DNA of 32,300 bases from Bacilli bacterium (lineage in GTDB: Bacteria; Bacillota_I; Bacilli_A; RFN20; CAG-826), in NCBI GenBank assembly GCA_024696885.1, contig JAILGI010000067.1, forward strand, positions 1-32,300. Direction: 5' to 3'. Of the stretch, positions 4,185-7,169 are shown piece by piece; the stretch's first letter is position 1, and each line of letters begins with the position of its first letter. Under the pieces are notes generated by a model. That model worked only from the letters and a program-made list of their open reading frames with translations. It was not told the origin of the DNA and did no database searches. The position numbers were made by a program, and so were the translations under genes.

Positions 4185-4980
4185 AAGCGTTTATTTCTAC
4201 TCCTAATTTAATTGTTGCACCTTTAGGTGCTGGTTCTGTACTACTTGATCGGAAACCTTCCAACCAAGAAACGATAGTATACCTTTTTGCTTCGCCAACA
4301 TTAATTGTTAGTCTTTGGAATGTGGTAACAACCTTTGATGAAGCGAATGTTTCAGCGTAACCCATGAATGGTTCTGATTCTGTGGCTTCACTTTCTCTGA
4401 CGGATACTGGAGCGCGGTAGTCCGCTTCTCCGGAAACGGCATTCTTATGAGGAATGGTTTCTCCTTTACCATAAACGGTTTTCTTTCCGTCTTCGTATAC
4501 CATGACGCGCATGGTATCTATTAAGGATCGCCCGTCCTCGCTTAATACGTTATCAGCGATATTCAGCTTGAAGTCGTATTTCGCGGGTGTTGTGCCTACG
4601 TTCTTCACATAGAAGGTGGTTTTGAAGAAGTTTAGTGAATCGTATTTACCTTCAGCGTCTTGATTTGCTCCTAAGGTATAATCGGTTTCTTCACTATCAA
4701 TGACGTCATCGCCGAATCTTCTTTCGAAATCACTATATGTGAATTCTTGGAAAGGCCACAATGAATCGACCCTGATGAATGTACTGCTATCGCCTGCGAC
4801 TTTCTTATTGCAAAGTGCGATTTCAACGTTTCTAGTTTCTAATGAAACTGTAAATGTTCCGACGAATCTACCTAAGAATGCGATAATTGATAGGGAAACT
4901 ACCACCGAGAGAGATATACCCCCAGCGATTAATACCCAGATTCTTCTTTTTCGTTTTCTTACGTATTCTAGCTCGTACAT
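4171..4980 (-). CDS. SipW/TasA-like surface protein (paralog 4, divergent), first gene of riboswitch operon
   Basis: RKRKRR plus N-terminal TM, then GTFTVSLETRNVEIALC; C-terminal VSWLEGF motif; SD GAAAGGT before ATG. Confidence 0.6.
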   Translation of the reverse strand: MYELEYVRKRKRRIWVLIAGGISLSVVVSLSIIAFLGRFVGTFTVSLETRNVEIALCNKKVAGDSSTFIRVDSLWPFQEFTYSDFERRFGDDVIDSEETDYTLGANQDAEGKYDSLNFFKTTFYVKNVGTTPAKYDFKLNIADNVLSEDGRSLIDTMRVMVYEDGKKTVYGKGETIPHKNAVSGEADYRAPVSVRESEATESEPFMGYAETFASSKVVTTFQRLTINVGEAKRYTIVSWLEGFRSSSTEPAPKGATIKLGVEINAYENE

Positions 4981-5017
4981 GTTTGTTACCTTTCAAAAAG
5001 GTGAGTGTCCCAACGAA

Positions 5018-5084
5018 GAAACAAAAATGCCACTTGCCTATCATCCTAACAACTAACACTTGTTGTTCTTCTAAGGCAACTGGC
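5018..5084 (-). terminator. Riboswitch expression-platform terminator overlapping aptamer 3' strand
   Basis: Minus strand GCCAGTTGCCT (5074-5084) pairs with AGGCAAGTGGC (5029-5039) with one mismatch, followed by ATTTTTGTTT. Confidence 0.8.
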
Positions 5085-5152
5085 TATCTAATATATTAGA
5101 CCCTGTAGTTTTGCGTCACCAAATTTCTTTGGTTTTGCTTTTTTCTCACCTA
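5073..5152 (-). ncRNA. Cyclic di-GMP-I (GEMM-I) riboswitch aptamer
   Basis: Minus strand: AGGTGAgaaaaaaGCAAAACCaaaGAAAtttGGtgACGCAAAaCTacaGGGTCTAatatatTAGATAGCCAGTTGCCT. GNRA tetraloop hairpin CCAAA-GAAA-TTTGG, ACGCAAA core, P3 GGGTCTA/TAGAtaGCC, and 3' AGCCAGTTGCC pairing as P1 with AGGTGA. Confidence 0.92.
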
Positions 5153-5154
5153 CA

Positions 5155-5182
5155 ATGTTACTCATCTATCAAGCAATGTCAA
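5155..5182 (-). promoter_or_regulatory. Sigma-A-type promoter driving the riboswitch operon
   Basis: Minus strand TTGACA (5177-5182), 16-nt spacer, TAACAT (5155-5160); predicted TSS just before aptamer P1. Confidence 0.65.
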
Positions 5183-5189
5183 ATATTTT

Positions 5190-5228
5190 TTTTACAAAAA
5201 GAAAAGAACCCCCCATATATGGAGGGTC
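5190..5228 (-). terminator. Intrinsic terminator of the 297-aa gene
   Basis: Minus strand ACCCTCCATATATGGGGGGT hairpin followed by a T-rich tail. Confidence 0.75.
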
Positions 5229-5252
5229 CTATAAATTTCCTTAATTAGCTTA

Positions 5253-6146
5253 TTATGAAGCGTTTGGAATCTTCACGGCAGCAAAGTGTAATGAAGCACC
5301 GACAGATTGGAAAACGGTGGCATCGTCATCGATTTCTGGATCTGTACCTTCATACCAGCAAACCACTGTGAATGTTAATGTGGCTTCGCCATTTGCGACA
5401 TATGTGAATGTACCTAAGTAGTCAGATCTTTGTGTACATTGTGCATATGTGGATTCAGATGTTGGAAGCGCATTATTGAATGAAGAATCCATTAAATCAT
5501 AGTTTGTAGCTGGAACATATGCTGTACCATCATAATCGCTGGTATCGTCAACATATTTACAATTTGCAGCAGTTTGTAAATCCGCTAAAACGGTTTTTCT
5601 TGTAGAACCATAGAAGCCCATTCTGAAGCCTTTGGCTGTGGAAGCTTCTCCACTACCAGAAACTGAGAAGTTAGTGTGGCTAGCGGTGTTATCAAGATAT
5701 AAACCATAGTTACCAGCAGCAGCGCCGAATTTAACTTTGAATGAGAGTTCAAATGTAGCAGCTGTATAAATGCTAACTGGTGTACTATCACTGGTTTGAC
5801 CTCTTAAGAGGTTAGATGTTGATGCACTAGCAACGGCAACACCAGTTGACGCGATTGCGGTACCATCTCCGGTTGGAGCATAGATCATACCATCTAAATG
5901 GTCAAACGAACCATCGGTTAATTTACCATTGAATGTAACGGCATTTGTACTTTCATTAACAGTTGTAGCAACACCAGATGAAACTGTGCATTCCAAGTTG
6001 GCGGTTGTTTTAACGACTGCGTATGTACCAGCGTCAAAATTGATTGTTCTATTCGCTGTGAACCATGCAACAGATCCAGCGATAGAAGCGGCCGTAGAAA
6101 AAGCAATCATAGCAAGTGCAGGAACAATAATTCTAGATTTTTTCAT
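5253..6146 (-). CDS. SipW/TasA-like secreted surface protein (paralog 5), separate transcription unit
   Basis: MKKSRIIVPALAMIAFSTAASIAGSVAWFTANRTINFDAGTY...; C-terminal VVCWYEGTDPEIDDD; SD AAGGAG. Confidence 0.75.
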   Translation of the reverse strand: MKKSRIIVPALAMIAFSTAASIAGSVAWFTANRTINFDAGTYAVVKTTANLECTVSSGVATTVNESTNAVTFNGKLTDGSFDHLDGMIYAPTGDGTAIASTGVAVASASTSNLLRGQTSDSTPVSIYTAATFELSFKVKFGAAAGNYGLYLDNTASHTNFSVSGSGEASTAKGFRMGFYGSTRKTVLADLQTAANCKYVDDTSDYDGTAYVPATNYDLMDSSFNNALPTSESTYAQCTQRSDYLGTFTYVANGEATLTFTVVCWYEGTDPEIDDDATVFQSVGASLHFAAVKIPNAS

Positions 6147-6442: not shown

Positions 6443-6718
6443 CTAATTATCTCTATAGTGTGACCACATTGAATGAACAACAATCGTCTTTACCTCTTTG
6501 TGGACTTTATAAACCAATCTGTGTTGGAGATTGATACGTCTAGAATAATATTCATCCAAATCTCCCACCAACTTTTCAAAGCTGGGAGGGGTTTGGAAAG
6601 GATTCTCGGCAATAAGATTCAATAATTTCTTTACTTTGTCCTCTAATCCTGCGCTTTTAAGTAGTTTTTTATCCTTATCGGCATTCTTTGTGAATTTAAC
6701 AATCCACATAACTACCAC
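6443..6718 (-). CDS. yoeB: Txe/YoeB-family mRNA interferase toxin
   Basis: NPFQTPPSFEKLVGDLDEYYSRRINLQHRLVYKV...IVVHSMWSHY is characteristic. Confidence 0.92.
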   Translation of the reverse strand: MVVMWIVKFTKNADKDKKLLKSAGLEDKVKKLLNLIAENPFQTPPSFEKLVGDLDEYYSRRINLQHRLVYKVHKEVKTIVVHSMWSHYRDN

Positions 6719-6963
6719 TCTTCATTTGGATTATATGTAGACATTTTAGAAATATCTTCTTTTTCGCCTTCTTTGATCTTTTCGACCAATCCCTTTTGAG
6801 AAACTAAATAAATAGTTTCTAACATTGCGTTGTATTCAGCTTCAGAGATAATTACTGCGTTTCCGTTTTTGGTGCTCACAGTGATAGAGTCATTGTACTC
6901 AATGACATTATCAATAGAACTAAAGAGATTTTTTCTCAAAACAGAAATATTTGTAACTGCCAT
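6712..6963 (-). CDS. yefM: YefM/Phd-family antitoxin
   Basis: MAVTNISVLRKNLFSSIDNVIEYNDSITVSTKNGNAVIISEAEYNAM; start trimmed to 6963 by the SD AGGAGG; overlaps toxin by 7 nt. Confidence 0.88.
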   Translation of the reverse strand: MAVTNISVLRKNLFSSIDNVIEYNDSITVSTKNGNAVIISEAEYNAMLETIYLVSQKGLVEKIKEGEKEDISKMSTYNPNEEW

Positions 6964-6985
6964 AAGTTTTTCCTCCTGATTATAT

Positions 6986-7036
6986 TGTACACTAATTGTG
7001 TACGCTTTCAAGTACAATTGTTCTCTTTTGTGTACA
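6986..7036. promoter_or_regulatory. YefM-type operator: repeated TGTACA-like cores
   Basis: tTGTACActaattGTGTACg, aGTACAatt and tgTGTACAaa within ~50 bp upstream of yefM. Confidence 0.55.
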
Positions 7037-7169
7037 AATTTCATCATATTTAAAAAGAGCCTTTTCCAAAAAATCTCTATTTGTCATGACTAATTTAAAG
7101 TCGATTATTTAACAGAATTGAACAAAGAAAGCGTAGGGGTGGCTATACCCTTTATTGATTAATTGTCCT

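Follow-up and report, generated by a model that had tools for sequence, protein, structure and literature searches.

A GEMM-I riboswitch with a predicted ON mechanism ahead of a four-gene operon of putative surface proteins in a small Bacilli genome

GEMM-I is a well-known family of RNA switches that sense cyclic dinucleotides. In the window, by which we mean the whole analyzed stretch of 32,300 nucleotides, a sequence-only reading had placed a GEMM-I riboswitch at 5018-5182 and predicted it to be an ON switch. We asked how this leader is built, in which direction it would act, which ligand it would sense and which genes it would control. With a probability of about 0.75, we read it as a transcriptional GEMM-I ON switch, with c-di-GMP as the most likely ligand, that controls an operon of four genes.

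Aptamer, promoter and terminator of the leader

The Rfam search of the window matched the GEMM-I model RF01051 at 65.8 bits (gathering cut-off 35 bits), which bore out the proposed family; RF01051 was the sole cis-regulatory RNA matched by this search. The whole-genome search found the window aptamer again and one further GEMM-I copy on a different contig. All 17 scorable base pairs of the model (both partners present) were standard. The aptamer has helices P2 and P3 with a GAAA tetraloop (GNRA type) on P2; owing to a short loop, the distal portion of P3 in the model has no counterpart. Candidate tetraloop receptor strands in P3, GGGTCT and AGATAGCC, were kept across the leader alignment. The pocket nucleotides A47 and C92 are present, as are GACGCAAA and GTTGCC, and the lower P2 pair is G21-C46. 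By inspection, P1 comprises about four pairs (G14-C93, A13-U94, G12-U95, U11-A96), of which G14-C93 at the apex is the pair reported for the GEMM-I class (PMC3764141). The locus is a further GEMM-I member; its unusual point is one pocket letter, an A at position 20, which the sequence-only reading had overlooked.

The promoter that had been proposed to set the start right at P1 scored 10 of 12. Since the distance from the -10 element to the transcription start is usually 6-8 nt, the start was predicted near 5149, where the match to the aptamer model begins. The gene upstream is closed by its own terminator, and therefore the riboswitch begins a separate transcription unit.

The terminator arms, GCCAGTTGCCT and AGGCAAGTGGC, pair with one G/G mismatch and are followed by ATTTTTGTTT (Table 1). 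Folded in isolation, the terminator reached -23.0 kcal/mol (z -5.3), and none of 200 shuffled sequences was equally stable. The arm duplex was computed at -18.7 kcal/mol, and 0 of 50 arm shuffles matched its pairing with the 3' arm. The aptamer 3' strand doubles as the 5' arm of this terminator, as first proposed: positions 5084-5074 pair with 5110-5107 and 5103-5102 in the aptamer and with 5039-5029 in the terminator. The further claim that both P1 and P3 would sequester this arm needs correction: the shared strand is the 3' strand of P3 together with C92 and C93, and P1 is short and lies outside the Rfam structure.

Table 1. Coordinates of the riboswitch leader, the operon and the related RNA copies of genus g34. 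Coordinates without prefix refer to the window.
Feature	Position (strand)	Details
Terminator of upstream gene (5253-6146)	5205..5230 (-)	11 pairs and T-run
Promoter TTGACA, 16-nt spacer, TAACAT	5155..5182 (-)	10/12 consensus matches
GEMM-I aptamer (RF01051)	5072..5149 (-)	65.8 bits, E 6.2e-11, full model 1-87
Position 20 (Vc2 numbering), A and not G	5139 (-)	Rfam model position 11
Shared strand	5074..5084 (-)	aptamer P3 3' strand with C92/C93; terminator 5' arm
C92, pocket, pairs with ligand guanine	5076 (-)	within terminator 5' arm; C in 87/92 aptamers
Intrinsic terminator	5019..5084 (-)	5' arm 5084-5074, 3' arm 5039-5029, U-tract 5028-5019, small inner hairpin
Ribosome-binding-like GAAAGG	4989..4994 (-)	8 nt before ATG at 4980; read from sequence
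First gene, P0001, 269 aa	4171..4980 (-)	N-terminal anchor and beta-rich domain
Second gene, P0002, 359 aa	3105..4184 (-)	AWY after hydrophobic segment of signal
Third gene, P0003, 375 aa	1878..3005 (-)	AWY-type signal
Fourth gene, P0004, 361 aa	773..1858 (-)	AWY-type signal
g34 RNA copies	L105:4623-4534 (-), L106:4560-4474 (-), L107:429-513 (+), L354:748-847, L356:1482-1581	

Direction of the switch and conservation of its layout

Because the strand that closes P3 and carries the ligand-pairing C92 is the terminator 5' arm, the terminator and the ligand-bound aptamer are predicted to be mutually exclusive, which supports an ON switch. RNA polymerase would start at about 5149 and transcribe the aptamer first. 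When a cyclic dinucleotide is bound (most likely c-di-GMP), pairing with the ligand would engage C92, and the aptamer would hold on to the P3 3' strand; the terminator would thereby be blocked and the four-gene operon transcribed. In the absence of ligand, the shared strand would pair with the terminator 3' arm, and transcription would stop in the U-tract. The predicted direction was supported by stepwise folding of the window leader, which stayed compatible with the aptamer up to about nt 114 and formed the terminator only from nt 118-122.

A precedent exists in the pilM GEMM-I riboswitch of Geobacter metallireducens, for which the same ON logic was shown experimentally: its ligand-pairing C75 is captured by the terminator (PMC9262584). 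Both leaders combine transcriptional ON control, mutually exclusive aptamer and terminator, capture of the ligand-pairing C, A20 and a P1 that is weak or unseen (PMC9262584). They differ in phylum, in output (pili genes for pilM, TasA/SipW-like proteins in the window) and at position 21, which is G rather than C in the window, and no cGAMP synthase was found in the window's genome. With the c-di-GMP-I riboswitches of the Vc2 and Cd1 type (RF01051), the window aptamer shares the whole-model match, the P2 and P3 pairs, the GAAA tetraloop, A47, C92 and G21-C46, and it departs from them in having A20 instead of G20. Moreover, Vc2 acts on translation and Cd1 is an OFF switch.

GEMM-I aptamers are known in both ON and OFF forms, and in C. 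difficile Cd1, an OFF switch, the aptamer and the terminator can coexist (PMC9262584). If the window leader worked in this way, the ligand would promote termination via an extra anti-terminator, and an alternative hairpin at nt 70-88 was indeed seen in some intermediate folds. In contrast to Cd1, aptamer and terminator of the window share the P3 strand and C92, and blocking of the 3' arm left a best fold that was weaker by 15 kcal/mol, with no strong competing anti-terminator seen. We consider an OFF switch highly improbable.

The layout favoring an ON switch was conserved. GEMM-I was carried by 46 of 144 relatives, and 92 aptamers were read from these 46 genomes. The promoter placement recurs as well: among 188 leaders (relatives plus database hits, the hits being chosen for A20, partly overlapping the relatives and not all independent), 94 had an upstream promoter scoring at least 10/12, and in 77 of the 94 the end of the -10 element was 12-15 nt away from position 20. 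With the promoter at a control placement, such a score was reached in 1 of 180. Orthologues of the first operon gene, as defined by a motif, were preceded by 45 leaders, a few of which (e.g., L228 and L264) probably do not belong to true orthologues; in 30 of the 45 the terminator 3' arm paired with the aptamer strand better than -12 kcal/mol. Alignment of 24 orthologous leaders with the same terminator overlap showed recurrence of AGGC and the T-run, and differing bulges that move the terminator 3' arm between sequences. At one position of the arms, some of these leaders have U-A and others C-G, with complementarity of the 3' arm kept; covariation in the terminator is necessarily limited because the aptamer fixes its 5' arm.

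A scan for the ON-layout overlap was strong in 39 of the 92 leaders, a count that is too low due to a fixed T-run rule, and given this proportion, other leader layouts exist within the clade. Leaders L104, L100, L277, L281, L290 and L320 form a subgroup: their aptamer strand includes GCCAGCAACC, and a second hairpin resembling a terminator follows some 100 nt further on. Tandem GEMM-I pairs ahead of one gene were seen in L050 (G001:C20:5008 and 5499) and L271 (3151 and 3337).

Bc1 of Bacillus thuringiensis has the family fold, yet fluctuating c-di-GMP drew no response from it in vivo (PMC11218506). The window leader might likewise be a relic or a constitutive attenuator that is no longer ligand-responsive, and A20 deviates from the class consensus. 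Against this, pocket letters and base pairs were retained even though the proteins diverged to 22-66% identity, and we regard loss of the response as a very slight chance.

Position 20 and the ligand

G20 is highly conserved in the c-di-GMP-I class (PMC3764141). A20 aptamers of Geobacter select cGAMP, and the exchange A20G turns Gmet_0970 from cGAMP to c-di-GMP (PMC6456294). Selectivity is also governed by the lower P2 letters, and a protonated adenine lets cGAMP aptamers bind c-di-GMP (PMC9262584). A Geobacter cGAMP aptamer has C at the lower P2 site (C15; PMC7288161). The G20 that marks the c-di-GMP-selective subtype is replaced by A at 5139 in the window, and the combination of A20 with C92 is that of the Geobacter GEMM-Ib cGAMP riboswitches. 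The window differs from GEMM-Ib in the lower P2, which has no C at 21 and keeps the G21-C46 pair of the c-di-GMP class, and in a genome with canonical diguanylate cyclases.

Of the 92 aptamers of the relatives, 53 have A20 and 39 have G20. A20 was present in 35 of the 46 genomes, and 16 genomes contained both kinds. At the operon, retention of A20 required three changes on the protein tree, compared to a mean of 6.4 after shuffling. The A is deeply kept here while the other GEMM-I of the same genome keeps G20, so A20 probably matters, for affinity or for ligand choice, and is unlikely to be neutral. This second copy (G000:C83:1721-1645 (-), L002:1577-1501; 64.2 bits) lies ahead of an AWF-type protein. 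The association of A20 with the operon (26/33 vs. 27/59, Fisher p 0.002) was weighed as a sign of a distinct ligand, an argument that we dropped: the tree needs only three changes, so that the rows lack independence, and the operon group for this test was defined by motif and by eye after the data had been seen.

The position that we scored in GGDEF domains is Ser in the cGAMP-making Hypr enzymes. The window's genome encodes two GGDEF domains that are intact and carry the canonical Asp, and one degenerate GGDEF-EAL protein; in this 86% complete genome no cGAMP synthase was found, that is, neither a Ser-type GGDEF nor a SMODS/DncV match. The residue was Asp in 110, Asn in seven and Ser in one of 118 GGDEF domains from riboswitch-bearing relatives, which represent part of the relatives' total, several genomes being incomplete. 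A DncV-type cyclase (SMODS family) occurred in 1 of the 46 genomes. The single GGDEF detected was of the Asp type both in G037 (94% complete, two A20 switches) and in G122 (90% complete, one A20 switch). Seven A20-bearing genomes of other lineages outside the set had no Ser among 37 domains (one being the reference, and best-scoring domains only). As canonical Asp-type GGDEF domains dominate and Ser-type and DncV cyclases are nearly absent, c-di-GMP is favored as the ligand on sequence grounds, possibly at reduced affinity. A20 is common here and the known cGAMP-making enzymes are nearly absent, so that A20 alone should not be taken as the mark of a cGAMP riboswitch.

At three GEMM-I copies the leader stands immediately ahead of a GGDEF gene, and each of the three has G20 (L079, G051:C24:46626; L094, G115:C33:21682; L095, G038:C56:12160); here c-di-GMP might feed back on the enzyme that makes it.

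The same ON mechanism could have 3',3'-cGAMP as its physiological ligand, which would make the leader a GEMM-Ib-like switch in Bacilli. The A20 with C92 retained, its conservation at the operon next to G20 in the genome's other GEMM-I, and the G20 of all three leaders preceding GGDEF genes fit this idea, and the seven Asn-type GGDEF domains leave a gap in the cyclase argument. It is opposed by the Asp in both intact GGDEF domains of the genome, by the lack of a SMODS match there, by the rarity of Ser-type domains inside and outside the set, and by the lower P2 pair, which is that of c-di-GMP aptamers and not the C described for Geobacter. On balance we judge cGAMP to be an unlikely ligand. A broader version, which we find slightly less plausible still, would have the A20 aptamers form a separate arm sensing a messenger other than c-di-GMP, with the G20 aptamers in the same cells reading c-di-GMP. 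The messenger would then be, for example, cGAMP from an unrecognised cyclase such as the Asn-type GGDEF proteins, and two signals per genome would be told apart by a single RNA fold whose versions differ chiefly at position 20. Should A20 stand for another ligand, the lineage would possess an unknown signal synthase. The Asn- and Ser-type domains as an explanation of A20 were rejected: all of them occurred in A20 genomes, but A20 is present in 35 of 46 genomes, and the coincidence is not significant.

Two further kinds of aptamer were noticed. A20 occurs together with U92 in L068 (G101:C41:12437) and in L228 at about 1020 (-), a combination that enables a Vc2 mutant to bind c-di-AMP (PMC7288161). 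The highest aptamer score of the clade, 81.5 bits, belongs to L035 (G014:C58:5780), which has G20 and comes from a 94% complete genome with no GGDEF detected; a contaminant contig or a lost partner is possible.

The operon and its relatives

The order P0001-P0004 (4980 to 773) recurs downstream of riboswitches in many relatives, and P0001 orthologues of 22-66% identity follow GEMM-I leaders in many of them. In the clade, most genes linked to a riboswitch encode an N-terminal hydrophobic segment with AWF or AWY behind it, which resembles the TasA-type signals cut by SipW. An aromatic residue directly after the cleavage site typifies these signals (PMC10269814). A SipW-type peptidase was found in the window's genome (TIGR02228, 68.8 bits vs. 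51.85), adjoining another AWF/AWY-type protein. GEMM-I leader L054 (G103:C111:719) precedes a gene resembling type I signal peptidase.

The five TasA-like proteins of the window, P0001 included, matched no Pfam or NCBIfam family, and the TasA families were not matched by sequence; a sequence search of solved structures gave nothing usable. The AlphaFold2 model of P0001 (pLDDT 82.6) had the TasA fibre among its fold matches at rank 8 (probability 0.98, E 1.2e-3, TM-scores 0.28 and 0.32), and for the P0003 model no solved structure was matched. The resemblance to the TasA/SipW matrix of Bacillus subtilis concerns the output genes only. Points in common are short, secreted proteins whose signal has small residues directly followed by an aromatic one, the SipW-type peptidase and the TasA fibre among the P0001 matches; the window proteins differ from TasA in the missing family match, the low TM-scores and the P0003 model without any match. 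From signals and synteny, and not from fold, we infer that the operon encodes four secreted or anchored matrix, fibre or surface proteins with TasA/SipW-like signals. Because these proteins are anchored or exported with SipW-type signals, a surface or matrix structure produced at high c-di-GMP would be the likely output.

The gene directly upstream of the leader, at 5253-6146 (-), encodes an AWF-type protein; it ends in a separate terminator and lacks a GEMM-I. Further upstream, at 6443-7047 (-), the window contains a YoeB/YefM-like toxin-antitoxin pair.

The assembly of the window's genome has 1.08 Mb in 97 contigs, and named close relatives are mostly rumen or gut bins of Bacilli, Erysipelotrichaceae or Bacillales. 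On our reading, uncultured gut Bacilli with very small genomes (about 1-2 Mb) would have putative matrix or surface proteins under the control of cyclic dinucleotides, and the conserved pair of riboswitch and operon is open to in vitro study from sequence alone.

A GEMM-I-like RNA was also present in all five genomes of the related genus g34 (5 of 279 genomes of the order). Three of the five copies scored 39.5, 37.8 and 30.6 bits with RF01051. The pocket of the g34 RNA is rewritten: A47 and C92 are changed, and GTCGTTRGAAC replaces GACGCAAA. The five g34 genomes (63-93% complete) yielded no GGDEF, and no report of this RNA was found in the literature searched. The RNA stands ahead of polyamine genes: in every copy, a carboxynorspermidine-synthase-like gene follows after about 40-50 nt, and further downstream in L105 and L107 come genes for an nspC-like decarboxylase, aspartate kinase and aspartate-semialdehyde dehydrogenase. 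The g34 RNA is a candidate riboswitch variant with a different ligand, and it may be more novel than the riboswitch of the window.
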